Below are positions 417 to 16,278 of a stretch of DNA of 38,981 bases, one piece after another. A program made the position numbers and the translations under genes. The notes under the pieces are model-generated. The model ran no database searches. It saw nothing but the letters and a program-made list of their open reading frames with translations, and was not told the DNA's origin. Where the stretch lies: NCBI GenBank assembly GCA_030524705.1, contig JAUNGD010000028.1, positions 3,997 through 42,977 of the forward strand, given 5' to 3'. Position 1 is the stretch's first letter; each line of letters starts with the position of its first letter. This DNA comes from Lachnospiraceae bacterium. Its GTDB lineage: Bacteria > Bacillota > Clostridia > Lachnospirales > Lachnospiraceae.

Positions 417-1397
417 TCAGGCTTTTTCTTCTTTTCTCTTGTTGGACGCGATGGCTCTTCTCTTGATCTGGAATGCGTCGAACCACATTACCAGCAGCAT
501 GATAGCGCCCTTTGCCACATACTGATAGTAGGTATTCAGACCGGCAAGCTGCATACCGTTTGCCAGCAGACCCATGATCAGCACACCGGCTACACAGTTC
601 GCGATCTTTCCTTCACCGCCCCGGACGGATACGCCGCCGACCAGGACGCCGGTCAATACGGTGATTTCCGTTCCCGCTGCCGTTCCTGCCGCAGCCGCGC
701 CGACTCTGGAGGTCAGCACAACGGCGCCGATACCACAGAACAGTCCGGCGATGCCGCCGATGGCATACTTCATTTTCTTTACGTTGATACCAGCCAGCCG
801 GGAAGCCGCTTCATTTCCGCCCAGTGCGAATACGTACCGCCCAAAATACGTTCTGTCCATGATAAAGCTCATGATCAGGCCCGCAATTACCATAAAAATC
901 GTTGCATAAGTAAGACTTGGGTGGAAGACAGTTCCCTGGCCGATTACCTTGAAGCCCGACGGCAGTGAGGAGATCGTCTTTGAATTCGTAATTACGTACG
1001 CAACACCCTGGTATACTGTACTCAGACCGATGGATACGAAAATACGCGGCAGCTGCAGCAGCTGCTCCAGCAGTGTTCCTATCATTCCGAACGCTATACT
1101 GATGACGATGGTGATGATTACTGCTACCGGAATCGGCATATTCGCATACACGACCATCATTGCACAGAGAACGCCGCAGATACTCATCTGATAGCCCACT
1201 GCCATATCCAGGCCGCCGGACATCATGATCAGCGCAATTCCATAGGCAGAAATAATAACGTATGCATTCTGATTCAAAATATTAAGCAGGTTCGTTAATG
1301 TCAAAAAATTCTGGCTGGTAAAGGTAAATACCACACATATCAGCAGCAAAAGAACCCACGCCAAATTTCTTCTGCAAAAATCAATTACTTTAGCCAT
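417..1397 (-). CDS. RbsC-type sugar ABC transporter permease
   Basis: The 326-aa membrane protein belongs to the BPD_transp_2 (RbsC/XylH/AraH) permease family. It has about 8-10 hydrophobic segments, starting around residue 12 (LAWVLLLLICVVF). Family hallmarks are GGLDMAVG near the N-terminus and FALGGNEAASRLAGINVKK in a cytoplasmic loop, which contacts the ATPase. It would form the channel for a monosaccharide or similar small polyol. The ATG at 1397 is two bases after the stop of the ATPase gene, and its GGAGG ribosome binding site lies inside that gene's end, so the two are translationally coupled. The substrate cannot be read from the sequence. Confidence 0.93.
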   Translation of the reverse strand: MAKVIDFCRRNLAWVLLLLICVVFTFTSQNFLTLTNLLNILNQNAYVIISAYGIALIMMSGGLDMAVGYQMSICGVLCAMMVVYANMPIPVAVIITIVISIAFGMIGTLLEQLLQLPRIFVSIGLSTVYQGVAYVITNSKTISSLPSGFKVIGQGTVFHPSLTYATIFMVIAGLIMSFIMDRTYFGRYVFALGGNEAASRLAGINVKKMKYAIGGIAGLFCGIGAVVLTSRVGAAAAGTAAGTEITVLTGVLVGGVSVRGGEGKIANCVAGVLIMGLLANGMQLAGLNTYYQYVAKGAIMLLVMWFDAFQIKRRAIASNKRKEEKA

Positions 1398-1399
1398 TT

Positions 1400-2890
1400 T
1401 TATTCCTCCACAATTCCTGATGCCAGCTCAAGAATCTTCTCCTGAGTGAACTCATTTTTCAAAACCTCTCCGCTGATTCTGCCCTCATGTAACACCAGAA
1501 TCCGGTCGCTCATACCAAGCATTTCTTCCATCTCGGAGGAAATCATAAGGATAGACTTTCCTTCCTCCACAAGACGGTTCATTAATTTATAAATTTCCTG
1601 CTTTGCGCCTACGTCGATTCCCCGGGTAGGCTCGTCGAAAATCAAAATGTCAGTGTCTGCCGCCAGTACCTTGGCCACCACCACCTTCTGCTGATTGCCA
1701 CCGGAAAGATTCCTCACCAGCTGCTTTGCCGTAGGTGTCTTGATGTCAAGAGTCCTGATATATTTGTCCACCAGCTTATCCAGGGCTTTGAAATTCATCA
1801 GCCCTCTTCTGCTGTTTCTTCGCAGGCTCATGACAGGAATATTCCACTCAATACTGTACTCCAGGAACGCTCCCTCCTGTTTCCTGTCCTCAGGAATCAG
1901 ACCGATTCCCAGATCCACAGCGTCTGCCACGGAGGTCGCATTCATAGCCTTTCCTCTGACGATGATCTCCCCGTGCTCCGGCTTCACATCTCCACAGACC
2001 ATCTTGGCCAGCTCCGTCCGGCCGGCTCCTACAAGTCCTGCCAGGCCCAGGATCTCTCCCTTATGTAATGTCAGATCAATGTGGAAGTCTCCGTTTCCGG
2101 TCAGATCCCTGACCTCCAGCACCGGCTCTCCTATTTTTACATTCCTCTCAGGGAATTTTTCTGTCAGCTCACGGCCGATCATATATTTGATCAGATCTTT
2201 TTTCGTAATATCCGCCACGTTGCGGGTCACAACGTATTTTCCATCCCGGAATACCGTTACTCTGTCACAGAGCTCGAACAGCTCTTCCAGACGGTGACTG
2301 ATATAAATGACGGATACGCCCCGCTCCTTCAGCTTACGCACGATGCGGAACATATTTCCGACCTCTGCCATAGGGATCGACGCGGAAGGCTCGTCCATGA
2401 TCAGCACCCGGCAATTCTTCACCAGAGCTTTTGCAATCTCTACGATCTGCATCTGAGCTGTAGAGAGCATCTGTACCTGGGTACTGACATCAATCTTTAC
2501 TCCCAGATCCGCCAGAATCTCCTCCGCGCGTTTTTTCATTTCTTTAAAATCAGGCATGCCCTTTCTGGTTCCTACCCGGTCGCCTAAAAAAACATTTTCT
2601 GCTATGCTTAAAGACGGAACAAGATTGAACTCCTGATAGACAACTCCGATACCGGCGCTTTTCGCCAATGCCGGAGTCAGCTTTGTGTATTCCTTTCCGT
2701 CAATTACAATTGTACCCTTTTCCGGCTGAATGGCTCCTGCAATCGTCTTGATCACCGTGGATTTTCCTGCACCGTTCTCACCGATCAGTGCCAATATTTC
2801 TCCCTCTTCTACATCAAAGGAAACGTCATCCAGTGCCACAACACCAGGGTACAGTTTGGTCACATGCTTAACCTCCAAAATTTTACTCAT
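1400..2890 (-). CDS. RbsA/MglA-type sugar ABC transporter ATPase
   Basis: This is a 496-aa duplicated ATP-binding protein of the carbohydrate-uptake-2 class. The first cassette has an intact P-loop GENGAGKST (residues 38-46), Q-loop (VVYQEF), signature LSTAQMQ and Walker B LIMDEPSAS. The second has the Arg-containing P-loop usual for this family (GLVGAGRTE), a perfect LSGGNQQ signature and LIFDEPTRGID. It energises import by the RbsC-like permease encoded downstream. I chose the ATG at 2890 because AAAGGA precedes it by about 7 bases and the family N-terminus begins at MSKILEV; an upstream in-frame ATG at 2920 lacks such support. The contrast with the degenerate paralogue at 4153-5505 is notable. 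Confidence 0.95.
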   Translation of the reverse strand: MSKILEVKHVTKLYPGVVALDDVSFDVEEGEILALIGENGAGKSTVIKTIAGAIQPEKGTIVIDGKEYTKLTPALAKSAGIGVVYQEFNLVPSLSIAENVFLGDRVGTRKGMPDFKEMKKRAEEILADLGVKIDVSTQVQMLSTAQMQIVEIAKALVKNCRVLIMDEPSASIPMAEVGNMFRIVRKLKERGVSVIYISHRLEELFELCDRVTVFRDGKYVVTRNVADITKKDLIKYMIGRELTEKFPERNVKIGEPVLEVRDLTGNGDFHIDLTLHKGEILGLAGLVGAGRTELAKMVCGDVKPEHGEIIVRGKAMNATSVADAVDLGIGLIPEDRKQEGAFLEYSIEWNIPVMSLRRNSRRGLMNFKALDKLVDKYIRTLDIKTPTAKQLVRNLSGGNQQKVVVAKVLAADTDILIFDEPTRGIDVGAKQEIYKLMNRLVEEGKSILMISSEMEEMLGMSDRILVLHEGRISGEVLKNEFTQEKILELASGIVEE

Positions 2891-4110: not shown

Positions 4111-4163
4111 ATTATAACAACGGTTTCTGTCGCGACGAGGTGGAAAATTCTATCAAAAGGTGG
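4111..4163 (-). promoter_or_regulatory. importer promoter with two CCACCT direct repeats
   Basis: On the minus strand a perfect TATAAT (4116-4111) lies ahead of the binding-protein gene. The -35 position (4139-4134) has no consensus, which suggests that activation is needed. Two CCACCT direct repeats, at 4163-4158 and 4143-4138, are 20 bp apart and sit within a longer 10-of-13 match. The proximal copy overlaps the -35 region. This layout is typical for AraC-type activators; the response regulator at 6468-8078 is the obvious candidate (inference). Confidence 0.5.
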
Positions 4164-5505
4164 TAATTTTCGCACTTCTCCCATTCTGTGTCACCACGAC
4201 GCTATGACAGTCCTCTCTGATTTCTTCCCTTGATTTTGAAAAATAAACGATCCGGATTCCTTTATTTTCCAGCGCGGTCAGATAGCTCCGGAGAATTCCT
4301 CTCTCCTCCCGATTCATTCCGCTGTAGGGGCTCTCCAGAATCATCACCCGGGGCCGGTTCAGCTCAAAACGATAGATTGATAAAAGCTTTTTCTGTATCC
4401 GGTTCAGTTCCTCTATATGGGTGATATCCGAATCAAGCCCTATTCTTTTATAAAATCCCCCGGCAATATTTTCCCGTATTCTTTTTTTGATCACGCCAAA
4501 ACGCTTTTTCCCCACCCGCAGCGGAATCGGCATGATCAGATTATCTGCAATGCTCAGATTTTTCAGCAGATACTCTGCGCTGTCCTTTGGAATAACCACC
4601 GTATTCTTTTTCTGGCTGAATCCGGTATCCGGAATATCTGCCCCGATATACTGTTTCCAGATTTCAGGATTATGCTTTTTCACGTAGGTCAGGTAATCCC
4701 AGATACATCCCTTCATCTCCCACTCATAATCAAACATCCCCAAAAAAGGGAGGGAAACCCCTTTGAGCTTCCTGTAATCCTGTTCTGCTATCATTTCATG
4801 GTGAAGCCGCTTTTGCACCCTTTCGGTCAGCCCGCTCCACTCCTTCAGATCTCTTCCCTGGGAAATGATCTGAATGCGGTTCGCTATCTCCGCGAACATG
4901 GCATAGCATTCCGATAGGATCACAAAAGTGATCCCTTCTGCATTGGCTCTTTGAATCAGCGCACACAGTTCCTCTGCCTCCTGTCCCTCGTATACGTCGC
5001 TGGTAGCGTCCAGCACGATCAGCCTGGCCCCATGCATCTTTGCCTTCAGGATGCTTAATTTCTGCCGTTCTTTTTTACTGAGCATCCAGAGAAATGCCCT
5101 GGCCGGAATATCCACCTGCTCCTTCTGCAAATATTCCTCCACCTTTTTTTCTGCCCTGCGAGGATCGTAGCGCCTGCCCGGAAACGGGAGATACCGCACT
5201 GCCTCCAGGTTTTCCGCGACGGTCAGAGTCTCTACCAGATCTTTCTCCGCAGTAATGGTGTAGATGCCATATTGATAAGCAGTATTTCGGGCAAAATTTT
5301 CCACCCTTTTCTCATCCACCAGGAATTCCCCCTGTTTCAGAGCACATTCCCCGGCCAAAAGGCTGATCAGAGTCCCCACTCCGCTGCCCTCCATCCCCTG
5401 AATATAAAAAATGTCCCCTGCGAAGACCCGCAGCTGATAATCCCGCAGCATGTCATCCTTCCTGTCGTCCTGCATTCCATGACGGATTCTCAATATCTCC
5501 CTCAT
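4153..5505 (-). CDS. degenerate duplicated ABC-ATPase-like protein (pseudo-ATPase)
   Basis: The 450-aa protein aligns by eye with RbsA-type duplicated ATPases, but the key motifs have decayed. P-loop residues 37-45 read GMEGSGVGT, with Val43 in place of the Lys. The signature is LSKKERQ (142-148). Walker B is LIVLDATSD, with Ala167 in place of Glu. The H-loop His is lost (LSECYAM). In the second half the P-loop region is missing, the signature equivalent reads LNRIQKK (368-374), and Walker B is VMILESPYSGMN (387-398). The frame is fully open, with a ribosome binding site (GAGAGG) inside the end of the kinase gene, so the gene appears maintained. It sits directly after the kinase gene and before an intact importer cassette. 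A role as non-catalytic adaptor or cytoplasmic sensor is inference. Confidence 0.8.
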   Translation of the reverse strand: MREILRIRHGMQDDRKDDMLRDYQLRVFAGDIFYIQGMEGSGVGTLISLLAGECALKQGEFLVDEKRVENFARNTAYQYGIYTITAEKDLVETLTVAENLEAVRYLPFPGRRYDPRRAEKKVEEYLQKEQVDIPARAFLWMLSKKERQKLSILKAKMHGARLIVLDATSDVYEGQEAEELCALIQRANAEGITFVILSECYAMFAEIANRIQIISQGRDLKEWSGLTERVQKRLHHEMIAEQDYRKLKGVSLPFLGMFDYEWEMKGCIWDYLTYVKKHNPEIWKQYIGADIPDTGFSQKKNTVVIPKDSAEYLLKNLSIADNLIMPIPLRVGKKRFGVIKKRIRENIAGGFYKRIGLDSDITHIEELNRIQKKLLSIYRFELNRPRVMILESPYSGMNREERGILRSYLTALENKGIRIVYFSKSREEIREDCHSVVVTQNGRSAKITTF

Positions 5506-5511
5506 ACCGGG

Positions 5512-6453
5512 TTACCTCTCAAACTGATTCTCATATTTTACCCTGGAAAAGACGTCCACTACCGGCATGGTGATGACCGCATCCGTGCCTTCGCCCTCCA
5601 TAGAACGATAATGGATCCCGTTTTCCTCTCCAAAAGTAATTTTCAGCCGCAGATTCACATTGCTCAGAGCGATTCCGTTGTGGCTTCCCTTTGTGTGCCC
5701 GGCGTCCAAAAGGCACTGTTTCATGCGCTCATTCAGACTGATCAGCTGCTCCTGGGACATCCCCACCCCATTATCCGATATCACGATGATCAGCTGCTTT
5801 TCTGTCCGCATCAGACGAATCTGTATCATTCCCTTTCTCTCAGATTTTTCCAGCCCGTGTATCATGGCATTCTCCACCAGCGGCTGCAGCGTCATCTTGG
5901 GAAGATACAGATCATTGAGCTCCTCCTGCTCCAGTTCTATCTCCATGTCAAAGCGGTCTTCAAACCGATACTTCTGAATATAATAATAATCCTTAATATG
6001 ATTCAGTTCCTCCCGCACCCGTACCAGATTGTCATTGTTGCTGATGCAATAGCGGAAAAACCGGGAAAGGATCTCCGTCATGCGGGCGATCTCTTTCTGC
6101 CCGTCCATCAACGCCCTGCTTCGTATACTGTCCAGCGTATTATACAGAAAATGCGGATTGATCTGATTCTGCAGAACGGACAGCTCCACCCGCTTCTGGA
6201 TCAGACGCAGCTCCTGAGCGTCCTCCTCATTCCAGACCACCTTCCTTTCCCGGCTGCGTCTCCTGCTCTCCGCGACCAGGTAATTCATCACTCTGGCCTG
6301 CTTTGCAGAAAGCCAGATGGATACAGCCAGCAGCGCCAGGGTCAGCAGCAAAAAAACAGCCGGCACCGGAAGCGGCGCCCGAAGCAGACCTGTGACTACT
6401 GTCAAAACTATTCCCACGGTGGCCATTCCCACTAAAATAATTATTTTTTCCAT
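5512..6453 (-). CDS. LytS/YesM-type histidine kinase without extracellular sensor
   Basis: This 313-aa sensor kinase has two closely spaced hydrophobic segments (about residues 3-23 and 31-49) and essentially no extracytoplasmic loop. A His_kinase domain follows with INPHFLYNTLDSI (phospho-acceptor His101), the N-box PLVENAMIHG (Asn195) and the G-box DNGVG (227-231). YesM kinases normally carry a ~250-aa Cache sensor, which is absent, so input must come from the membrane or a partner protein; the pseudo-ABC protein encoded 6 bp downstream is a candidate. I chose the ATG at 6453 because CAGGGG precedes it by 6 bases. A TTG at 6471 overlapping the regulator stop (TTGA) is possible but weaker. 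Confidence 0.9.
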   Translation of the reverse strand: MEKIIILVGMATVGIVLTVVTGLLRAPLPVPAVFLLLTLALLAVSIWLSAKQARVMNYLVAESRRRSRERKVVWNEEDAQELRLIQKRVELSVLQNQINPHFLYNTLDSIRSRALMDGQKEIARMTEILSRFFRYCISNNDNLVRVREELNHIKDYYYIQKYRFEDRFDMEIELEQEELNDLYLPKMTLQPLVENAMIHGLEKSERKGMIQIRLMRTEKQLIIVISDNGVGMSQEQLISLNERMKQCLLDAGHTKGSHNGIALSNVNLRLKITFGEENGIHYRSMEGEGTDAVITMPVVDVFSRVKYENQFER

Positions 6454-6467
6454 GATCATCCCCTGGT

Positions 6468-8078
6468 TCAACTATAAATCCTGCGGTACTCCGTCGGTTT
6501 GATTCCGGTCACCTTTTTAAACAGCTTCGAATAATATTTCTCATCCAGATAGCCCACCATGGCTGCAATCTCTTTGATCGTCAGATTCGTCTCTGCCAAA
6601 AGCTTTTCCGATTCTTCCAGCCTGACCTGGGTCAGAAATTCATTGAATCCGATACCCATTTCATCCTTGAACAGCCTGCTCAGATAATTGCCGGAGACGT
6701 TGCAGTCCGAGGCCACATCCTCCAGGGAGATCTGCTTTCCATAATTCTCCCTGATATACCGGACTGCCATGGTAATCGGCTTTCCCATTTTCTCCTTCAG
6801 CTTTTTCTGCTCCTCATCCAGATATTTTTCCAGCGTCAGGTATACGTTTTTCATTACCTGGGGGAAATTTTTTCCGTTCAGATATGCATAGTAAAAGTTC
6901 TCCATGAAGCGCAGCCGCTCCTCTCCCTCCTCAAAGCAGACTGCCAATCCATGCTGAAGGCTGAAAAATGCATTTAAAATATCGTCGGGGTATGAGTTAC
7001 TCAGCTCACCGGCCCGCCGATAGAGCCTGTCGAATACATCACTTAATTCCTCCCGGCGCAGGTACTTGATACAGTCTCTTATCGTTTCCTGCTCATCATC
7101 CGTGAACAGCCGGTTTCTGGAAAACCTGGGGAGCCCCTCGATCTGATGATAGTCCAAAATGCCATTGCGGGTCAGAACCAGCCGCCCCCATTCCGCCGCA
7201 TGAGCCTCCACAAATCCTTCATACAGATCCGAAATAGAATATTTCACCGAGCTTACTCCAATATTCAGGCGGAATTCTCCATACAGCTCGCTCAGGTCCC
7301 GAATATTGTAATACAAAACGGAAATCGCCTGCCGCACTGCTTTTTTATCCTCCTCCCGGAAATTCACCACCATTACAATTCCCATGTAGGTGGTATGATA
7401 ATACACCAGTCCCAGATTTTGAAAGCTCTCCCGGATGAAAGCAGCTACCTTCGTATTGCTCAGAGAATCCTCCTGTCCCAGCACCGCACTCAGATCCGAA
7501 AACATGCTGAGAACCTGATAGCATCCGGGGGTAAAGTCTGTATGGAACCTTTTGTTGCATGCCTCCTCTGATGCCAGAAACACCCTTCTGTCCGGATTTT
7601 GCCGAATGATAAAGAGATTCCAGAACACTTCCATCTCCTGACGGCTCTTTGCCTCCCGGATAGAGCACATCTCATCCTCCTGCTGCTTCTGGATCCGGAG
7701 CTGGTCTACACGCCGGCAGACCCGGACCAGGGTCTCATTCAACTGCCTTTCATCGATCGGCTTCAGCAGATAATCCATTACATTCAGTGAAACGGCGCTT
7801 CTGGCATATTCAAAATGACGGTATCCGCTGATGAGCACAAACAGCGGATCCGGATTTACCTCCCGCACCCTCCGGATCAGTTCAATGCCGTCGTACACCG
7901 GCATTTTTATATCTGAAAAAACAAAATCGGGATTATTTTTTATAATGCTTTCATATGCCTGTTTCCCATTACGGCACTCATCCACGATTTCTATATCGAG
8001 CTCCTTCCAGTGTCCCAGCTGCTTTATCAGTTCGATAATCTTCGGTTCATCATCTGCTATGATCAGCCTGTAACTCAT
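6468..8078 (-). CDS. YesN-type response regulator, receiver plus AraC HTH
   Basis: The 536-aa regulator begins with a receiver domain (IIADDEP, phospho-acceptor Asp56 in SDIKMP, Lys in YLLKPID). A long central region of ~290 aa follows, and an AraC-type double helix-turn-helix occupies the last ~100 residues (ISLEDVASDCNVSGNYLSR and the closing IKPTEYRRIY). It would be phosphorylated by the kinase encoded immediately downstream and activate carbohydrate genes, probably the importer at 417-4075. The start at 8078 has AAAGG seven bases upstream; the open frame reaches 8126 but only fills the space after the GH3 remnant. Confidence 0.93.
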   Translation of the reverse strand: MSYRLIIADDEPKIIELIKQLGHWKELDIEIVDECRNGKQAYESIIKNNPDFVFSDIKMPVYDGIELIRRVREVNPDPLFVLISGYRHFEYARSAVSLNVMDYLLKPIDERQLNETLVRVCRRVDQLRIQKQQEDEMCSIREAKSRQEMEVFWNLFIIRQNPDRRVFLASEEACNKRFHTDFTPGCYQVLSMFSDLSAVLGQEDSLSNTKVAAFIRESFQNLGLVYYHTTYMGIVMVVNFREEDKKAVRQAISVLYYNIRDLSELYGEFRLNIGVSSVKYSISDLYEGFVEAHAAEWGRLVLTRNGILDYHQIEGLPRFSRNRLFTDDEQETIRDCIKYLRREELSDVFDRLYRRAGELSNSYPDDILNAFFSLQHGLAVCFEEGEERLRFMENFYYAYLNGKNFPQVMKNVYLTLEKYLDEEQKKLKEKMGKPITMAVRYIRENYGKQISLEDVASDCNVSGNYLSRLFKDEMGIGFNEFLTQVRLEESEKLLAETNLTIKEIAAMVGYLDEKYYSKLFKKVTGIKPTEYRRIYS

Positions 8079-8126: not shown

Positions 8127-8516
8127 TTATCTTTTTATCAGAATATAGCTTTCCAGGCCCTCCCTGGGGGCTTTATACGGTACTGCTCCAGGGTGGGCCG
8201 CACTCTGCATGATAACAGAGAGCATCCGCTTTCCGCAGGAACGCAGCTCTTCCAACGTGAGGAGGCAGAATACTTCTCCCTGTTCCGCGCTCACTGTCAT
8301 GCGGCTGTTCACGTCGCCGGATCCAGTGCCGCCCTTCACTGTATGACGGGTTCCATTTCCAAACAAAGCGAGCCGCCCTACGGACTTTGGGATCGGAAGT
8401 CCCCCGTCATTCTTCAGCAGCACCATGCCCTCGGCAGCAATTCTGCGGGCGCGCTGCATATTCCGTTCCTCCCGCAAGCTGAGCTTTGGGTCCTTCGAAG
8501 CAAAAATTCTGGCCAT
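8127..8516 (-). pseudogene. internally deleted GH3 beta-glucosidase remnant
   Basis: The 129-codon open frame begins like GH3 proteins that carry the C-terminal-type domain first: AAEGMVLLKNDGGLPIP, then LALFGNG and TVKGGTGSGDVNSR (residues ~28-72). After about residue 80 it jumps to a segment like the very end of such enzymes (LTLEELRSCGKRMLSVIMQS). Full-length relatives are roughly 700-900 aa, so several hundred codons, including the catalytic (beta/alpha)8 domain, appear to have been lost in frame. The start at 8516 keeps a strong ribosome binding site (GGGAGGTAGAGG), so a small inactive protein may still be made. It lies upstream of the response regulator gene. The family assignment is by motif recognition. 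Confidence 0.65.
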
Positions 8517-8543
8517 CCTCTACCTCCCTTTCATAGCACAAGA

Positions 8544-8574
8544 GGGAACGATCCCCTCCTTCCAGAATCGTCCC
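8544..8574 (-). promoter_or_regulatory. hairpin between esterase fusion gene and GH3 remnant
   Basis: GGGAACGAT (8544-8552) and ATCGTCCC (8567-8574) form an 8-bp stem with one bulge in the spacer after the tannase fusion gene. No T-run follows on minus, so termination would be weak. The AT-rich stretch just before it on minus (8580-8610) could contain a promoter for the downstream regulators, but no convincing -35/-10 pair was found. Confidence 0.3.
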
Positions 8575-8622
8575 GGCTCTGTTATTTGTTATATTATTGT
8601 TTGATGTGCTCTTTGTCTGTAC

Positions 8623-11600
8623 CTACAGCCTCCGGCGAAGGAAATCAAAAATCAGATTCAGATTTTCTTCTGCACCGAACATCGGATCATCGTGTTCCGC
8701 GCCCTCCAGGGCGGCAAATTCCACCTTATCTTCTCCAATCCTCTCTTTTATTTCCCTGACAAATTCCAGTGACTGCTGCTGCGGTACCAGCCGGTCCACG
8801 GTTCCATGCTGTACCAGGATCGGACTCATTTTTTCACTGATATAAGACGCGGGATCAGCCGCCGCACAAAGCTCTTTGGAAGCCTCCGGCACTGCAATTC
8901 CCAGATATTTTGATTCCGGAGACAGCGGTTCGTCATGATCCGCAAAGCTGATTCCATTGGCTCTTGCCTGGTCATCCATGGTCTTAAAATTCATCGGCCC
9001 AAACTGGTCCACCGCCGCCGCAACAAAAGGCGTCTCTCTGTATTCGTCCTCCGGCTTTTCTCCGGGAAATGCCCCGTTCGGAATATTCATGGCCAGCATA
9101 GCGGCCAGGTTTCCTCCCGCTGAGCCGCCGATAGAGACCATACGCTCCGGATCCAGACCATATTCCTTTGCATGCGCCTTCAGGAAACGGACCGCCTCTC
9201 TGCAGTCCAGCACCGCTGCCGGGAAAATTGCTTCACCGCTGAGACGGTACTCCACTGCCGCCACTGCAAAGCCTCGTCTGACTCCCTCCAGATACGCCTC
9301 CAGATGAAAGTCCCGTTTATCTCCAAATGCGAATCCGCCTCCGTGGGTGTAGACCAGCACCGGGAACGGCCCCTGTCCCTCCTCGGGCAGGAACAGATCA
9401 AGACGCTGATTTTTGCTCTCTTCTCCATAAGGAATATCCAGATAACTTCTATTGATCCAGCTGATATCCGCCATCACAGGCTCATGCCCCTGCCCTGGGG
9501 CCGCTTCTACTCCCGGCTGACCTGTCACCTGCCCTGCGGCCGCTTCTGTCTCCGGCTGGCCTGCTGTCTGTCCTGGGGCCGCTTCTGCCTCCCCGCAGAT
9601 TTCATCGATCCACCGGCATACGTCTCCCGGATAATCCGCCTCGCTGTGCGGCCTGTCCCAAACAAGCTCATAATCCACCGGTTTGCCTGCCGCCGCCAGC
9701 TTCAGGGCAAGTATCATGCTTGCCGTAAACGCAGTATCTGCATCACTGGCCCCCACTCTGATGCGGTAATAGGCGGCCGTATCACTTTTCTCCTCCGTTC
9801 CGATATAATTCAGCGGATTGATCAGATAGATTCTTCGATCCTGCTCCGGGTCCAGCTCCGCCGCCGCATAAGAATCATAATACCTCTTATATTCCTCCGG
9901 GAACTCATCCTTCAGCTCTGCGATCGCCGCAGTGATTCCCCGGTTAAAATGCATATAATGATTTTTCTTTGAGCCGAACACCCGGTTTTCTCCGCTGTCC
10001 ATTCCCAGCGTATCAAAGGAGGTACAAGGCTTCATCCTTCTTCTGTGCTGCAGCACATACGTATCCAGGTCCGTTATCACAGCCTCTCTTCCATTCCAGC
10101 TCAGCCAGCCCTTCTTCTCATTGCCCTTCACCAGTACCATCGGAGGCTCCTGACCCTCGTACGGCACTCCCTTGGGCGGACGGGATACCAGATCTCCCAG
10201 AGAAGGCGGTTCCGCGCCTGCCTCTTCTCCTGCTCCCTTATTCTCCGTCTTTTGAAGCGCGACTCCCGGACCTGCATGACCCTGCATCAGATCTGAGCCC
10301 TCTTCCTTGTCTTCTTTGCCTCCCATAGGAGCCATCGTCAAATACTCATAATTTCCATTCAGGTAATCTTCCACCGAATAGGGTACCTCCAGCTCTCCGC
10401 TTTGCAGCTTCTGCAGAAATACCGTGGCCGATTCACTGATTTTATTCATCAAATAATCGTAGGCGCTTCCGCTCCTGCCGTCTTCCTTCAGCAAAAGCGG
10501 CTGATGCTCCAGCGGGCTTTCCAGTCCAAGGCTGTTAAAATATTGAATATACTGTTCCTTCAGCTTCGCAGACAAAGCCTCCTGGAATGGTGTCATGACC
10601 CCAGCCGGTCCCGCAGGAGAATTCTCATTTTCCTTATCTGCCGAAAACATCCACTCGTATGCCTGATCCGAATGCTCCAGATCTACGATGGGACAATACA
10701 TCTGAGCGGCATAAATGTCATCCCGCTCCTCCATAAACGCTCCGTTTTCCTTCAGATATGCATCAAAATTCGCATTGTTTCCGGTGACAGCCAGTAAAGA
10801 AGACATGGCGCCGCCGGCACTCCATCCCACAGAAATAATATGATCCAGATTTCCCGGAATTGCCTTCGCATTGTGTCTCAGAAAGCGGATCGCCGTCTTG
10901 AGATCCACCAGATTGGCAGGAGCTTTTCCGCACAGCTCCCCGTTTTCATCCCTTGATTCACTTCCGCGGTTGCCGCAGGCTACATAGACAAAGCCATGCT
11001 CCAGATACTGTTCTGCCGAGCATCTCGGTCCGCCCAGCCACACATGAGGCATCTGCATGTATCCTGCTGAATTGTTTCCGAAAACAACCGGTACTGTTTC
11101 AGCCGTATATCCGTTCATACTGCCTTCCCGGTCGATTTCCCCCTTCGCCTTCATATAAGGCTCCGGTACGAAAATGCTCAGGCGCTGGAACTTCGGCGTC
11201 GTTGCCCTCTCAGTATACAGAATATCCTCCAGGCACCAGCACCTGTATGTCTCGTCAAAAAACCAGCTGTCCTTACAGTCAGACAATTCCATTGTTTTAT
11301 TCGTAATTGATATGTTCTCGTTCATTTCTTCCTCCACGATCTCTTTTAACACCAGTTCCATTGCATCTAAAATTTCCAGTATCTCCCGGCGGCCTATATT
11401 ATCATAATGTATCCCGGCCTTTACCGTTACCGGATTGTGATATATCTCCTTCAGAGCTTCCGCCCACCGGCGGCAGATACAGCCTTCCTTGTGCCCCGGA
11501 AAGACGATTTCATGTGTCTCCATCCCCGGGCCTGCCACGGCCACCGCACCGATGTGGCTCCTGTCGCCGCCTTCGATCAATACATCCAGCCCCGCTCCTG

Positions 11601-11673
11601 TGTCAAACATATGAATGCGGATCTCCCGGCCAAGCACTGTCCGCCGTTTCTCCAGACAAATTCCCTGCTTCAT
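8623..11673 (-). CDS. LpdD-like / tannase / alpha-beta esterase trifunctional fusion
   Basis: This is a 1016-aa cytoplasmic protein with no signal peptide. Residues 1-~115 resemble the LpdD family that accompanies UbiD gallate decarboxylases (GAVAVAGPG, FPGHKEG, KAGIHYDNIGRREI). Residues ~120-693 resemble lactobacillal tannase: FGNNSAGYMQMPHVWLGGPR, the nucleophile motif GWSAGG (Ser285), Asp644 in GASDADTAF and His676 in RPHSEADY. A Gly/Ala/Pro/Gln-rich linker (694-731) follows. Residues ~738-1016 form an HSL/BD-FAE-type esterase with oxyanion motif HGGG (777-780), GGSAGG (Ser851), Asp960 and His994. It should hydrolyse galloyl or related phenolic esters and, through the first domain, support prenyl-FMN-dependent decarboxylation by UbiD. 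The ATG at 11673 overlaps the stop of an upstream mini-ORF (ATGA). An internal start at 11325 is plausible. Confidence 0.88.
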   Translation of the reverse strand: MKQGICLEKRRTVLGREIRIHMFDTGAGLDVLIEGGDRSHIGAVAVAGPGMETHEIVFPGHKEGCICRRWAEALKEIYHNPVTVKAGIHYDNIGRREILEILDAMELVLKEIVEEEMNENISITNKTMELSDCKDSWFFDETYRCWCLEDILYTERATTPKFQRLSIFVPEPYMKAKGEIDREGSMNGYTAETVPVVFGNNSAGYMQMPHVWLGGPRCSAEQYLEHGFVYVACGNRGSESRDENGELCGKAPANLVDLKTAIRFLRHNAKAIPGNLDHIISVGWSAGGAMSSLLAVTGNNANFDAYLKENGAFMEERDDIYAAQMYCPIVDLEHSDQAYEWMFSADKENENSPAGPAGVMTPFQEALSAKLKEQYIQYFNSLGLESPLEHQPLLLKEDGRSGSAYDYLMNKISESATVFLQKLQSGELEVPYSVEDYLNGNYEYLTMAPMGGKEDKEEGSDLMQGHAGPGVALQKTENKGAGEEAGAEPPSLGDLVSRPPKGVPYEGQEPPMVLVKGNEKKGWLSWNGREAVITDLDTYVLQHRRRMKPCTSFDTLGMDSGENRVFGSKKNHYMHFNRGITAAIAELKDEFPEEYKRYYDSYAAAELDPEQDRRIYLINPLNYIGTEEKSDTAAYYRIRVGASDADTAFTASMILALKLAAAGKPVDYELVWDRPHSEADYPGDVCRWIDEICGEAEAAPGQTAGQPETEAAAGQVTGQPGVEAAPGQGHEPVMADISWINRSYLDIPYGEESKNQRLDLFLPEEGQGPFPVLVYTHGGGFAFGDKRDFHLEAYLEGVRRGFAVAAVEYRLSGEAIFPAAVLDCREAVRFLKAHAKEYGLDPERMVSIGGSAGGNLAAMLAMNIPNGAFPGEKPEDEYRETPFVAAAVDQFGPMNFKTMDDQARANGISFADHDEPLSPESKYLGIAVPEASKELCAAADPASYISEKMSPILVQHGTVDRLVPQQQSLEFVREIKERIGEDKVEFAALEGAEHDDPMFGAEENLNLIFDFLRRRL
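11323..11335 (-). promoter_or_regulatory. internal ribosome binding site and ATG inside the fusion gene
   Basis: A GGAGG motif (11335-11331) lies six bases before an in-frame ATG (11325-11323, Met117), exactly where the LpdD-like domain ends and the tannase-like domain begins. The Glu-Glu codons GAG GAA encode it in frame. It could start a tannase-esterase isoform without the LpdD part, or be a relic of two separate genes joined by loss of a stop codon. Confidence 0.45.
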
Positions 11674-11793
11674 GTTCCTCTTTCCATGCCTTTCCTGCGC
11701 TGTTCCATCATATGTCCTTCTGTCATATGCATTCCCTGTGCCGTTCCATCATATGTCCTTCTGTCATATGCATTCCCTGTGCCGTTTCATCAT
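11670..11793 (-). other. three chained mini-ORFs with ATGA overlaps
   Basis: Between ubiX and the fusion gene are three short reading frames: 11793-11764 (MMKRHRECI), 11767-11723 (MTEGHMMERHRECI) and 11726-11670 (MTEGHMMEQRRKGMERGT). Each start overlaps the previous stop as ATGA: ubiX with the first, first with second, second with third, third with the ATG of the fusion gene at 11673. AAGGA motifs precede internal ATG codons. They arise from the 41-bp repeat, whose length of 3n-1 preserves this frame relation. They could carry translational coupling from ubiX across the spacer; a function for the peptides themselves is doubtful. Confidence 0.4.
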
Positions 11794-11802
11794 ATGCCCT
11801 CC
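11686..11802 (-). repeat. 41-bp tandem repeat, about 2.7 copies
   Basis: Two near-perfect units occupy 11702-11742 and 11743-11783. A third, diverged part-copy (11784-11802) runs into the ubiX stop region, and a decayed part-copy extends to about 11686. The unit contains CAGAAGGACATATGATGG, a ribosome binding site plus start. It looks like serial duplication of the ubiX stop/coupling segment. Confidence 0.85.
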
Positions 11803-12353
11803 CATTCGTAGGTTTCTTCATTCAAACCGAACTGCCGCAGGATCCTCTGTACCGCATGTGCAGTACATTCTTCTACAGACTGCGGGCGATGGTAATACGT
11901 CAGCATAGGCGGCATAATTACAACACCCATGCGGCTCAGCTCATACATATTTCTGAGGTGGATCGTATTGAGAGGAGACTCTCTGGCCACCAGCACCAGT
12001 TTTCTGTTTTCTTTCAAAGTAACATCAGCGGCCCGGAGCAAAAGATTGTCGCTGTATCCTGAGACAATTCCTGCCACGGTCTTCATAGAACACGGAACAA
12101 TGACCATGCCCTCCATCTCAAAGCTTCCGGAAGCCGGTCTGGCCCCTATATTTTCATTTTCATAGCAGATATCTGCCAGCTCCCTTATCTGCTCCAAAGA
12201 GATATCTGTCTCCTGGCGCAAGGTCAGCTCGGCTCCCCTGGTCATAATCAAATGACTTTCCACCGTATCATTTTTCTGAAGCTGCCGAAGCAGCTCCACC
12301 GTAAGAGGCGCACCGGAGGCGCCGCTCATTCCGACTAACAGACGCTTTTTCAA
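11790..12353 (-). CDS. ubiX: UbiX/Pad1 flavin prenyltransferase (LpdB-like)
   Basis: The 187-aa flavoprotein prenylates FMN to make the prFMN cofactor of UbiD decarboxylases. The glycine-rich N-terminal motif is GMSGASG (8-14), and the family signatures VPCSMKTVAGI and ARESPLNTIHLRNM are intact, as are the active-site Ser/Glu-type residues within them. Length is normal. The start is TTG at 12353, preceded by GAGGTG with ~6 bases spacing. The gene follows ubiD by 87 bp (with a GCCTGC/GCAGGC stem at 12392-12417) and overlaps the first mini-ORF. The neighbourhood with UbiD and an LpdD-like domain matches gallate decarboxylase loci, where this subunit is LpdB. Confidence 0.95.
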   Translation of the reverse strand: MKKRLLVGMSGASGAPLTVELLRQLQKNDTVESHLIMTRGAELTLRQETDISLEQIRELADICYENENIGARPASGSFEMEGMVIVPCSMKTVAGIVSGYSDNLLLRAADVTLKENRKLVLVARESPLNTIHLRNMYELSRMGVVIMPPMLTYYHRPQSVEECTAHAVQRILRQFGLNEETYEWEGI

Positions 12354-12440
12354 CTTATCACCTCACCAAATGTTTCTGTCATCAAATATTTGCCTGCATC
12401 TCACATTTGCGGCAGGCGGCTCTGCCTTCGCTCAATGTTT

Positions 12441-13913
12441 CTAGCTCAGCCATTTTTTGGGGTCTACTTCCATGAAAGCAGCTCTGCGGAACCGGTCTTT
12501 CAGATGAAACGGCACTGTGCAGTCAAAAATTGTCTTGCAGCTGATTCCATTATCTGAAATAGAGGGCGCGTAAAGTGTACTGGAGCTGGGATCCAGAGGA
12601 TGGCATCTGACCCCCGGGATCGTCACGATATCCCGATCTCCCTGAAATCTGGTGTTCATGGCCCACAGAACATCTCTCGTATCAAAAATGTCCACATCCT
12701 CATCCACCAGTATTACGTGCTTCAGCTCCGGAAATGCCGAAAACGCCAGCAATGCTGCCTGCCGCTGTTTGCCCTCGTCCGTGTGAACGGTCTTCCGGCA
12801 CTGAAGGACCGCCATATATTTGCCTCCACCGGAGGCATGAGCGTAGACGTTAGTCACCTTCCCCGGCAATGCCTTTTCAATCATATTGTAAATGCTTGCC
12901 TCCGTAGGAATTCCCGCCAGATTCACATGCTCCTCCGACGGACCTATTACCGTCTGCATGATAGGATTCTTGCGGGTAGTCACCGCCTTTACTTTAATCA
13001 GCCAGCACTCGGAGGACGCGCGTCCGTTGTAGCCCGGAAATTCCGGCATTGCATAGCCTGTATGCGAATTCTGGTCCTCCACCACCTTCACGCCCGGAAC
13101 AATCTCGCCCTCAATGACATACTCTGCATTTGCGATCGCATTTTCGTTGATAGAAACACATCTGTGCAGCTTCACCGGCTGCTGGCGGATGGCCCCGGCA
13201 ATCGACAGTTCATCGTAGCCAAGAGGCGTTGTGGGCGGTTCAAAGCAGGATCCTATTTCTATTGCCGGATCGACTCCGATCGATATGGATATCGGGAGCG
13301 GCTGATTCAGCTCCGTCGCCCGCTCTGCCATTGCACCAATGTGCCGGCTTCCGGGCTGAAGGAAAATGGACAATTCATCCCTGGACTGGATGCACATTCT
13401 ATGAATCGTCACATCCGAAAGCCCCGTATCCGGGTGGGTGGCATAGCACATTCCCATTGTAATATACGGACCGGCATCCAACGGCGTATTAGTGGGAGCC
13501 GGGATCAGCCTGAACAGGTCAAAATCCGGATCCTCTGCCCGGTAGATCATCTCCTGACATGGCGCAGCCTCCTCCGTCACCACCGGAGCCAGCGGTTTTT
13601 TTGCACATTCACACAGCAGCTTCCCCAGGTTTTCCTTTTCACATCCCAGCAGAAGACCAACCCTTTCCCGGCTGGCAAGAAGTCCGATCACTACGCTGGC
13701 CCCGGGATGCCCCTTTACATTGTGAAAGATCATTGCAGGACCGTTTACCTTTGTGGGGCGCATCACAGTGCCGCCGGCTCCGACGTACCGGTACACACCT
13801 GACAGCTCTGCCTCAGGATCCACCTCCACCTTCGTCTCGATCAGCTGCCCCGGAGTCTCCCGCAGAACATCAAGTGCTGTACGCAGGTCTAAAATATCGG
13901 TTCTATTATTCAT
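12441..13913 (-). CDS. ubiD: UbiD-family decarboxylase, probable gallate decarboxylase (LpdC-like)
   Basis: The 490-aa prFMN-dependent decarboxylase has family blocks including MIFHNVKGHPGASVV, DAGPYITMGMCYATHPDTG, VTIHRMC (conserved Arg172), LQPGSRHIG, the Glu-rich NAEYVIEGEIVPG (262-274) and HASGGGKYMAV. The length equals that of LpdC-type hydroxyarylic acid decarboxylases. Gallate or protocatechuate is the likely substrate because a tannase-like domain and UbiX are encoded next door; vanillate or 4-hydroxybenzoate cannot be excluded. The ATG at 13913 has AGGAGG four bases upstream. The open frame extends to 14102 but would overlap pgmB and does not match the family. Confidence 0.93.
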   Translation of the reverse strand: MNNRTDILDLRTALDVLRETPGQLIETKVEVDPEAELSGVYRYVGAGGTVMRPTKVNGPAMIFHNVKGHPGASVVIGLLASRERVGLLLGCEKENLGKLLCECAKKPLAPVVTEEAAPCQEMIYRAEDPDFDLFRLIPAPTNTPLDAGPYITMGMCYATHPDTGLSDVTIHRMCIQSRDELSIFLQPGSRHIGAMAERATELNQPLPISISIGVDPAIEIGSCFEPPTTPLGYDELSIAGAIRQQPVKLHRCVSINENAIANAEYVIEGEIVPGVKVVEDQNSHTGYAMPEFPGYNGRASSECWLIKVKAVTTRKNPIMQTVIGPSEEHVNLAGIPTEASIYNMIEKALPGKVTNVYAHASGGGKYMAVLQCRKTVHTDEGKQRQAALLAFSAFPELKHVILVDEDVDIFDTRDVLWAMNTRFQGDRDIVTIPGVRCHPLDPSSSTLYAPSISDNGISCKTIFDCTVPFHLKDRFRRAAFMEVDPKKWLS

Positions 13914-13954
13914 AATGCCTCCTGTAAAGCTATGTTTTCTGATTCGTTTCTTTT

Positions 13955-14614
13955 CTATTTTATTACATTTAAAATGTCGCTGACCCGCTTCAGAGGATAA
14001 TCTGTCCATTCGTAGTCTGAAGCCGCTCCGAGCCCTGCACTCAAAAAGCCTCCATTGTGCGCGGCCTGTATCCCCGCTTCCGCATCCTCTACCACCAGAC
14101 ATTCTCCTGGCTGCAGCCCCAGCATATCGGCTGCCTTCAGGAAAACCTCGGGATTCGGTTTGGAAAAAGTAATATTGGTCCCATCGCTGACTGCGTGAAA
14201 AAATCCTTCCAGGCCAATCTGTCTCAATATCATTTTCGTATTCTTGCTGGAGGATCCGACAGCCACTTTCAGCTCGCGCTCCTTTAATGCCTCCAGAGTA
14301 GCCTTCACATCCTGCGGCAGATCCTCCGGCGTCATTTTCTTAAGAAGATCACGGTATATTTCATTTTTCTGCCTGGCCAGCTTTTCCTTTTCCCCGGCAG
14401 AATACGACCTTTCGGAGCGTTCCAGAATAATATCCAGACTATCCATTCTGCTGACTCCTCTCAGCCGGTTATTGATTTTTTCGTCGAAGTAGATTCCCTG
14501 TGCATCTGCAATGGCCTTCCACGCCTGATAATGATACGTATCCGTAAAGCAGATCACTCCGTCCAGGTCAAAAATCACGGCTTTCAGCTTATATTTATTC
14601 GTATTACCGTCCAT
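13955..14614 (-). CDS. pgmB: beta-phosphoglucomutase, HAD family
   Basis: The 219-aa HAD phosphatase-like mutase interconverts beta-glucose-1-phosphate and glucose-6-phosphate. The nucleophile motif is FDLDGV (Asp16, Asp18). Cap-domain LRGVSRMDSLD, GSSSKNT, SKPNPEVFL and EDAEAGIQAA are all typical of PgmB. It is encoded 11 bp after the GH3 gene and 41 bp before ubiD, with ribosome binding site GGGAGG. beta-Glucose-1-phosphate is produced by inverting phosphorylases such as GH65; the only one in the window is at 26458-28962, in another operon. Its presence here suggests that sugar released from phenolic glycosides or esters is handled by the same operon. Confidence 0.92.
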   Translation of the reverse strand: MDGNTNKYKLKAVIFDLDGVICFTDTYHYQAWKAIADAQGIYFDEKINNRLRGVSRMDSLDIILERSERSYSAGEKEKLARQKNEIYRDLLKKMTPEDLPQDVKATLEALKERELKVAVGSSSKNTKMILRQIGLEGFFHAVSDGTNITFSKPNPEVFLKAADMLGLQPGECLVVEDAEAGIQAAHNGGFLSAGLGAASDYEWTDYPLKRVSDILNVIK

Positions 14615-14625
14615 CTTTTCCTCCC

Positions 14626-16278
14626 TTAGCAGTGTGTATCCGGCAATCCGCAGAACGGATCTGTGGGACTTATCCCCCGAAATGTACTGTTCCCAATCAG
14701 CTTTTCAATGGCCCCGCAAACCGTCGCCCGGGTAGCCGAGTATGCATTCACGTATGTTCTGACTCTTGGAACATCCTGCAGATGGTATGGATTGGCAAAG
14801 GAAATAAAAACCGTCTTTTCCTCATTCACAAACCGGGGAATTTCCATTGCGTGCTTCGGGCACCAGCTGATGCGCACCGTCGTATTGTTGCTGGCGGTCT
14901 GATAATTTGCCAGGATCAGAGTCAGCCTGTCTTCGGGCAATCCGGCGCTCCCATGCAGATCATCTGCAAAGGGATCATACCGCTCCACCTGGAATCCATT
15001 TTTCTCCAGAATCTCCTGCGCGGTATCACCGATGCTTCCGTCGAACATGCGATCCTCGCCCAGCACCGTCAGCCTGATCTTCGGGTAATCCAATGACCGT
15101 ACCGGTACTGCCTGCTGTATGTCCTTAACCAGTGTAATTGCCTGGTCCGCACATTCTTCTGCCCAGCGTCCGCACTGCCCAAAGGAAATCTCATCAAGCT
15201 CATGGGGCTTGCGGCTTTCATCCGTCACCCTGGCCTTCAGGGCAAGAATTCTGGTGACCGCCTCATCCAGCCGCTCCCCTGTCAGAATTCCGTTCTGCAG
15301 ACCTTCCTTTACATATCGAATATCTTCATAAACATCAGTAGAAAAACAGATCATGTCACATCCGGCCTGGATGCTGGCAGGAATTGCCTCTCTTCTGGCC
15401 ATTGCCATCGTATAGCCGCCCATGATCGTTGCATCCGTAATGATAACCCCCTGGAAACCGAACCTTTCCCGGAGCACTCCGGTCAGCATTTCTCTGCTGA
15501 GAGAAGCCGGAAGCTCATCCTTTTCAGAGGCCTCTGGATTTACCCATCGAATCACATTCGGCTGAACAATATGTCCTACCATAATGCTGAGCAGCCCTTC
15601 CTTTATCAGGCTTTCATATATCTTCCCATAAGAGGAAAACCATTCCTCCGCGCTGAGGTCATTATAAGTGGGATGCAGGTGCTGGTCCCTGTAGTCCACT
15701 CCGTCTCCCGGAAAATGCTTACAGGACGCCGCCAGTCCATGCTTCTGGAGCTCCCTTACAAATACGGACGCATGCTTTAAAACAGTATCCGGATCATTTC
15801 CGAAGGTCCTTACATTTGTAATAGGATTCCTGAAATTGTAATCAATATCCACTACCGGCGAAAAGGTCCAGTTTACTCCTGCTTCTCTTCCCTGACGGGC
15901 GCAAACTCTGGCAAAATTTCTGGTACACTCCATATCATCTGCCGCCGCCACCTGCATCTGGGAACCAAAATAAGTTCCATCCGTGAGAACGCCGGCGCCG
16001 CCTTCCTCCAGATTAGCCGCCTTCAGCAGCGGTATCCTGGCACACTTCTCCATTTCCCGGTACTTTTTCTGAATATTCTCCAGTGTATCCGGGCGAAACA
16101 AGATGCCGCCGATGCCATACTTCTGTATCAGCTCCCGACGGCTCTGCTGTTCATACACATCTCCCAAAATGCAAAATAACTGCCCGATTTTTTCCTCCTC
16201 TGTCATATCATCCAGTGTCTGTTTTACCCAGACACACTGCTCTTCCCGCAGAAAATAAGGTGCTTTCTGCAAATCCAT
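14626..16278 (-). CDS. GH3 family glycosidase, NagZ-like
   Basis: The 550-aa protein has a GH3 N-terminal (beta/alpha)8 domain with KHFPGDG (187-193), followed by the Asp198/His200 pair in RDQHLHP, which is the NagZ-type acid/base loop. The nucleophile is Asp282 in IITDATIMGG. A C-terminal alpha/beta region follows from about residue 370 (LTVLGEDRMFDGSIGD). No signal peptide, so it acts on imported substrate. The NagZ signature suggests beta-N-acetylglucosaminidase or a related beta-glycosidase, possibly with phosphorolytic activity as known for some members. As first gene of the tannase/decarboxylase operon it may act on glycosides of phenolic acids (inference). The ATG at 16278 follows AGGAGG. 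Confidence 0.85.
   Translation of the reverse strand: MDLQKAPYFLREEQCVWVKQTLDDMTEEEKIGQLFCILGDVYEQQSRRELIQKYGIGGILFRPDTLENIQKKYREMEKCARIPLLKAANLEEGGAGVLTDGTYFGSQMQVAAADDMECTRNFARVCARQGREAGVNWTFSPVVDIDYNFRNPITNVRTFGNDPDTVLKHASVFVRELQKHGLAASCKHFPGDGVDYRDQHLHPTYNDLSAEEWFSSYGKIYESLIKEGLLSIMVGHIVQPNVIRWVNPEASEKDELPASLSREMLTGVLRERFGFQGVIITDATIMGGYTMAMARREAIPASIQAGCDMICFSTDVYEDIRYVKEGLQNGILTGERLDEAVTRILALKARVTDESRKPHELDEISFGQCGRWAEECADQAITLVKDIQQAVPVRSLDYPKIRLTVLGEDRMFDGSIGDTAQEILEKNGFQVERYDPFADDLHGSAGLPEDRLTLILANYQTASNNTTVRISWCPKHAMEIPRFVNEEKTVFISFANPYHLQDVPRVRTYVNAYSATRATVCGAIEKLIGNSTFRGISPTDPFCGLPDTHC

Follow-up and report, generated by a model that had tools for sequence, protein, structure and literature searches.

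A degenerate RbsA-like protein encoded with sensor-less LytS-type kinases in Lachnospiraceae, a candidate signalling subunit of sugar importers

In the clostridial xylose-sensing system XylFII-LytS-YesN, a protein resembling a substrate-binding protein contacts the extracellular part of a kinase, and in UhpC-UhpB-UhpA a transporter homologue, the major facilitator superfamily (MFS) membrane protein UhpC, serves as the kinase receptor. SUR1 and SUR2 (ABCC8/9) are eukaryotic ATP-binding cassette (ABC) proteins with fused membrane and cassette domains that have turned regulators, in their case of a channel. The go-between of Pst and PhoR, PhoU, lies outside the ABC family, and Pst has an active ATPase. 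That the importer reports to the kinase in PstSCAB-PhoU-PhoR is stated in a passage of PMC6978683, and parts of PMC10314905 and PMC6978683 describe how the intramembrane-sensing kinase of a Bce module gets its signal from the module's own ABC transporter, which must be functional for signalling; a section of PMC9306890 presents the ABC permease VfmG as a proposed co-sensor. A literature search of open-licence papers found no description of a histidine kinase partnered by an ABC ATPase that is dead or degenerate. Such a pair is encoded in the 38,981-nucleotide stretch of Lachnospiraceae bacterium DNA analyzed here (the window; contig JAUNGD010000028.1, positions 3,997 to 42,977, assembly GCA_030524705.1). 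Its ABC member is a degenerate RbsA-like double cassette, a pseudo-RbsA frame of the kind labelled pABC below, and is probably a signalling subunit docked on an RbsC-type permease in the place of the motor, passing ligand occupancy to a kinase that itself lacks a sensor.

The minus strand of the window carries, in this order, regulator, kinase, pABC, binding protein, RbsA, and RbsC:

6468..8078, minus strand: response regulator, YesN-type, with receiver and AraC helix-turn-helix (Pfam)
5512..6471, minus strand: histidine kinase, LytS/YesM-type (PF06580 and HATPase_c), two transmembrane helices, no sensor domain
4153..5505, minus strand: pABC, catalytically degenerate RbsA-like double-cassette protein, 450 amino acids, intact frame
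5377..5379, minus strand: codon 43 of pABC, Val in place of the P-loop Lys
5194..5244, minus strand: residues 88-104 of pABC, the first-half segment past the Q-loop position, with Asn99, kept; presumed permease-docking segment
5005..5007, minus strand: codon 167 of pABC, Ala in place of the Walker B Glu
4522..4566, minus strand: residues 314-328 of pABC, the second-half counterpart, with Asn322, kept; presumed permease-docking segment
3071..4075, minus strand: binding protein, sugar-type (Peripla_BP_4, Pfam), N-terminus resembling a signal sequence
1400..2890, minus strand: intact RbsA-type ATPase, every site-1 motif present
417..1397, minus strand: RbsC-type permease (BPD_transp_2 / PF02653, Pfam), 326 amino acids

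A PF06580 kinase and a receiver/AraC regulator thus adjoin a sugar-type ABC importer by Pfam. Only 6 bp separate the kinase end from the pABC start, and the 3' end of the regulator overlaps the start of the kinase, which is listed as TTG with in-frame ATG codons a few codons further in. The earlier note had pointed to this 6-bp coupling to a kinase without an extracellular sensor and to a true RbsA and RbsC just downstream; both are borne out, with a binding-protein gene besides.

The nearest logic is that of BceAB-BceS-BceR, a flux-sensing system for antimicrobial peptides in which the kinase is signalled by an ABC transporter, as is proposed here. The window kinase shares the Bce-like arrangement of two hydrophobic helices joined by a short loop (about 7 residues), with no sensor domain by Pfam or hydropathy. 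In Bce, however, the transporter cycles and BceA binds and turns over ATP, whereas the constant partner here is a separate and apparently dead ATPase homologue. The active ATPase that drives the Bce signal is unmatched by a pABC that appears to lack an ATP site, intact RbsA being a separate protein, and the MacB/BceB-like permease with its large extracellular domain is unmatched by the 326-residue PF02653 protein. Unlike Bce, the system also has an importer with a binding protein and a PF06580-type kinase. XylFII-LytS-YesN likewise places a LytS-type kinase and a YesN-type regulator by a sugar ABC importer, but the kinase here has no extracellular region and its partner is a pseudo-ATPase. In contrast to UhpC, what has gone dead here is an ATPase subunit, that of an ABC importer; importer-to-kinase reporting would be shared with Pst-PhoR, though PhoU is of another kind and the Pst motor works; and the proposed shift of an ABC protein from transport to regulating another protein recalls SUR1 and SUR2.

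Judged by sequence, no usable ATP site is left in the window pABC, an ABC protein of the duplicated RbsA type. Its frame is intact, and the structure predicted for it shows an ABC fold in each half (predicted local distance difference test, pLDDT, 84.8), in keeping with the double-cassette architecture that had been claimed for it. Pfam gives 52.3 bits to ABC_tran, with one domain above the cut-off, in the first half; the best NCBIfam double-cassette model gives 116.6 bits and misses its equivalog cut-off of 689, which weighs little because the intact window RbsA also falls below the listed equivalog cut-offs (best 538.5 vs 689). The two cassettes per chain that characterize RbsA are present, but a functional ATP site 1 is not. 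The telling losses, by alignment, are those of Lys43, Glu167, the H-loop His (the position holds Glu), and the second-half LSGGNQQK. The first three had been listed in the earlier note. Two further losses listed there, of LSGGQ in the first half and of the second P-loop, where a D-x-x-W stretch stands, were rejected as special since the intact RbsA also departs from the motifs at these places (LSTAQMQ in its first half, and GAGRTE where the second P-loop has been altered).

The same degeneration is seen across the family when aligned columns of 60 pABCs are compared with those of 42 intact-type RbsAs, at identities of 15-35% that may leave single columns misaligned. The P-loop Lys is retained in 21 of the 60, the Walker B Glu in 7, the Q-loop Gln and the H-loop His in 5 each, and the signature Gly pair in 2 for each Gly, vs 42/42 RbsAs at every one of these positions. 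Lys and Walker B Glu coincide in a single pABC (L205), and the site-1 Lys plus Ser/Thr or Asp is retained in L133, L135, L138, L141, and L142. A binding protein accompanies the pABCs of L133 (7837-9282) and L135 (7801-9267), both of which keep the P-loop Lys and H-loop His. Walker B Asp-Glu is kept in L201 only, a second pABC of the window's genome on another contig (7333-8832, plus strand; regulator, kinase, pABC, RbsA, and RbsC), which belongs to another subgroup and whose P-loop Lys is gone.

In many genera the pABC gene forms a unit with those of a sensor-less LytS-type kinase and a YesN/AraC-type regulator. Every fetched locus of at least 1,500 bases (291) was scanned, to bring out any pABC lacking a kinase, and 71 low-RbsA frames were listed, of which L222 and L227 are cut repeats, leaving 69 distinct pABC frames. 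A LytS/YesM-type kinase stands directly before 65 of these; in L070, L143, and L069 it lies elsewhere in the cluster, and L014 is cut at the locus edge. The corresponding count for intact RbsA-type frames in the same 291 loci is 0/148, part of the 148 sitting at locus edges. Clusters were laid out in full for 64 pABCs, that is, all but L014, L103, L113, L118, and L126. All 64 have a kinase within 7 kb on the pABC strand, 61 of them directly before the pABC, with gaps of -169 to +154 bp (exactly -4 in 15), and 62 have a regulator, the remaining two clusters being at contig ends. These loci cannot be counted as independent: L031-L037, L040, and L041 closely resemble the window copy, as L071 and L072 do each other.

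The association was also approached from the kinase, in 8 further genomes with at least 176 kinases. Frames shorter than 400 amino acids were listed for 21 of them, 14 of which were already known in a pABC cluster; among the other seven, which were fetched, six had a pABC directly behind (L237-L241 and L243), compared with none of 13 long kinases (three from G368, six from G141, and four hand-picked). The hypergeometric probability of this contrast, calculated by hand, is 1.8e-4, or 5.2e-4 for 5/6 if L241, which had an unexamined partial hit in the earlier pABC search, is left out. In all, 20 of the 21 listed short kinases are located in a pABC cluster. Together with the purifying selection described below, these counts uphold the pairing by descent of a dead ABC subunit with a sensor-less kinase that the earlier note had seen at one locus, including the co-occurrence it had suggested checking.

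An extracellular sensor domain was found in none of the pABC-linked kinases inspected for topology (28, of which L067 could not be judged). Hydropathy predicts two helices joined by loops no longer than 17 residues in 20 of the 28, one helix in five, and none in L143 and L069. The front of the L067 frame (9659-10693, minus strand, at a contig end) is unlike a kinase, and this contig is perhaps mis-joined. Kinase frames directly adjoining a pABC (61) are 257-396 amino acids long, except for one split copy. The window's genome encodes 16 PF06580 kinases, of which only two are short (319 and 356 amino acids), and these are the two beside a pABC; the 1.5-kb flanks of the other 14 (frames of 500-621 amino acids) hold no pABC. 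Besides the kinase next to the pABC, the window itself has two PF06580 kinases, at 17792-18028 (minus strand) and 33637-33879 (plus strand), in frames of 585 and 589 amino acids with flanks free of pABC.

Within the genus, 9 of 47 genomes, including that of the window, have a pABC, with an open frame in all copies seen. The first seven genomes compared keep the order regulator-kinase-pABC-binding protein-RbsA-RbsC as far as their contigs reach; the L031 contig stops after the binding protein, and the L034 regulator is split. The window order is kept in other genera of the family (L064, L065, L066, and L067, the last ending inside the kinase) and in the named Lachnospiraceae species Kineothrix alysoides (L045, NZ_JPNB01000001.1). 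Scanning the genome contigs with the single window protein returned no relative; later profiles did, placing one pABC subgroup in at least 22 of 299 genomes of the family at 320 bits or more. The family-wide searches scored the best 4-5 first-look candidates per genome, making such genome counts lower bounds. Further families of the order and class also have pABCs (L142, L113, L118, and L269-L272). In a tree with long branches, 23/23 intact-type RbsAs and 28/28 pABCs fall on opposite sides of a branch with 100/100 support, which fits, without proving, a single origin of the pABCs.

The family is under purifying selection. Among seven close relatives other than the window copy, the ratio of nonsynonymous to synonymous substitution rates (dN/dS) is 0.081-0.158 for pABC (21 pairs), compared with 0.024-0.060 for the kinase (21 pairs) and 0.015-0.038 for RbsA (15 pairs). 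Given these ratios, the open frames, and the presence in nine genomes of the genus, the protein is not there by chance. Scattered frameshifts, which the earlier note would have counted against a functional system, were not seen in the pABCs, although these were taken as open frames and broken copies would therefore be under-counted. Apparent frameshifts split the regulators of L034, L046, and L216 and the kinase of L205, possibly through errors in draft genomes, and the L216 pABC beside its split regulator is short (430 amino acids) and perhaps decaying.

While the ATP site has been lost, two Asn residues have been kept. They lie in segments presumed to contact the coupling helix of the permease, as in ABC transporters. 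Asn99 is retained in 57/60 pABCs and its second-half counterpart (RbsA Asn350, window Asn322) in 59/60, or in 48/51 and 50/51 when nine near relatives are removed. Of the 76 columns at which RbsA is at least 95% conserved, those of Asn99 and Asn322 rank third and first for retention in the pABCs, each tied with a Gly; once Gly and Pro columns are set aside, 50 remain, and these two lead them. ABC-F proteins are two-cassette ATPases without a permease. As a control, 32 of their cassette rows were taken from 17 of 18 loci (three rows are repeats, and one locus had no usable frame). The Asn occurs in 1/32 of these rows vs 18/19 permease-linked ones (RbsA half 1, 7/8; half 2, 8/8; single cassettes, 3/3). 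ABC-F cassettes keep the ATP motifs and lack the Asn, and pABCs show the reverse. Were the residue needed for the fold alone, ABC-F cassettes should have it too. The ABC-F linker ABC_tran_Xtn (PF12848) is not among the Pfam matches of the window pABC. A PDB sequence search with RbsA at E 1e-60 returned no solved RbsABC complex on which to place the docking segment.

An RbsC-type permease accompanies the pABC, without an intact RbsA in the fetched 12-18 kb, in seven clusters (L068, L070/L182, L134, L143, L069, L220, and L240). The permease is PF02653 by Pfam in L068, L070, L134, L143, and L220 and was recognized by BLAST and alignment in L069 and L240; a Peripla_BP_4 binding protein is found by Pfam in L068, L134, L143, L069, and L220. 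L205 was excluded from this group because a cut RbsA frame adjoins its permease. In three other clusters (L142, L214, and L215) the pABC adjoins an additional PF02653 permease, besides RbsA and RbsC; that of L142 sits between pABC and RbsA and is assignable to either. In 12 aligned permeases six columns after Met1 are invariant, and Thr183, Gly193, and Gly203 fall within one 21-residue stretch, presumably the cytosolic coupling region. The L068 cluster (8481-16139), in the order binding protein-RbsC-regulator-kinase-pABC, and that of L182 (340-13244), with permease, regulator, kinase, and pABC, stand beside tripartite transporters of the TctA kind (L068 by Pfam, L182 by inspection), and a putative receptor in L068 may control this different transporter.

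The contrast between the kept Asn pair and the lost ATP site suggests that the pABC probably touches the importer permease, one of two contacts that the earlier note had offered. The other, with the sugar-loaded binding protein, finds no support: that protein is exported, and no signal sequence or membrane helix was seen in the pABC. We infer that the pABC would dock on an RbsC-type permease from the cytosolic side, by way of the coupling segments used by RbsA. In the window it would do so on an RbsC presumably serving as docking partner for RbsA and pABC alike, and in some other clusters on a permease of its own. A loaded binding protein engaging the permease would lead the permease to shift the pABC rather than to drive ATP hydrolysis, and the pABC would then switch the adjacent kinase, so that the regulator is phosphorylated and controls the importer genes and their neighbours. 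The signal need not be the transport state, as had been supposed, because the seven clusters combine permease, pABC, and kinase with no intact RbsA nearby; the notion of a pABC signalling to kinase and regulator is otherwise retained. On the whole the observation in the earlier note is confirmed and its interpretation partly supported.

Several points weigh against this proposal. The control for the Asn covers few rows (19 and 32), and the segment's docking role is presumed from ABC transporters in general. Within 7 kb on the strand, L133 and L135 lack an RbsC-type permease although their contigs continue, and none is seen in L208, L213, and L218 either, of which the first two have RbsA on the other strand (L208 also RbsC) and the third is near a contig end. 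The neighbourhoods lacking RbsA are compatible with an RbsA elsewhere in the genome. The short kinase L242, distant by its profile score (69), has no pABC. Homologues in this context with intact P-loops, which the earlier note had named as contrary evidence, occur in part: with the P-loop Lys in 21/60 and the Walker B Glu in 7/60, some pABCs may bind or slowly hydrolyse ATP, but the two residues are found together in only one, and single columns may be misaligned.

Among the alternatives, the pABC could work with the kinase in the cytosol, sensing something internal such as a nucleotide or sugar phosphate, with no contact to a permease. Kinase adjacency is indeed steadier than permease presence, L133 and L135 have a binding protein without a nearby permease, and a third or so of the P-loops keep their Lys; yet the best retained RbsA residues outside Gly and Pro are the docking Asn pair that ABC-F proteins almost lack, and seven clusters keep a permease without RbsA, which makes this explanation unlikely. 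Retention of the Asn pair would be equally expected of a pABC that regulates transport by occupying the permease and blocking RbsA, its pairing with a two-component system serving only to set its amount, and the window type does have a single permease gene for both proteins. We regard this as improbable, since in L068, L134, L143, L069, L070, L220, and L240 there is a pABC with a permease and no RbsA to block, and the sensor-less kinases would have no input.

Still less credible is an accessory importer ATPase with an unusual catalytic site that continues to move substrate. The five members with a partial site 1 (L133, L135, L138, L141, and L142) are what would be expected of it, but Lys with Walker B Glu in 1/60 and signature Gly in 2/60 are not, and both cassettes are already supplied by RbsA. 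Decay of an RbsA duplicate into a pseudogene beside the kinase would explain why the protein changes faster than RbsA and why the L216 member is shortened with its regulator split, but the frames are open (the copies having been chosen as open), many genera and several families carry the pABC, and purifying selection is strong; at dN/dS values of this order we rejected the pseudogene reading for the window type, and it has barely any probability left. The docked signalling subunit is thus the explanation that we favour.

A promoter scan gave 7 promoter-like sites vs 10.2 in shuffles, and the same scan gave 19 terminator-like sites vs 7.2. Upstream, between regulator and esterase, a 129-amino-acid frame (8127-8516, minus strand) matches only the start of the glycoside hydrolase family 3 (GH3) C-terminal domain model PF01915 and looks like the remnant of a glycosidase gene. 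Beyond it (8623-14614, minus strand) are a 1016-amino-acid protein with a feruloyl-esterase-like domain (BD-FAE), a UbiD-type decarboxylase, a HAD hydrolase, and a flavoprotein, UbiX-like judged by its place, a gene set perhaps used on plant phenolic esters.

We know of no identified input for many Firmicutes LytS/YesM-type kinases. One set of them gains a candidate here, an importer scaffold read by a dead ATPase, and because the pABC is repeatedly encoded behind a sensor-less kinase in Lachnospiraceae and some relatives, it is probably the link between importer and gene switching. The chances seem evenly balanced that there is a wider receptor class made from whole ABC importers, in which a binding protein and an RbsC-type permease, together with a dead RbsA, make up a ligand-gated receptor feeding LytS-type kinases that are sensor-less and in two cases apparently soluble. 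Asn99 and Asn322 are residues whose change should uncouple signalling, and the genomic rule that follows, to look behind a short sensor-less kinase for a pseudo-RbsA, worked for 6/7 kinases chosen by length. If the proposal is true, an ABC importer has been turned into a receptor in these bacteria, which would help to assign substrates to their regulatory circuits.

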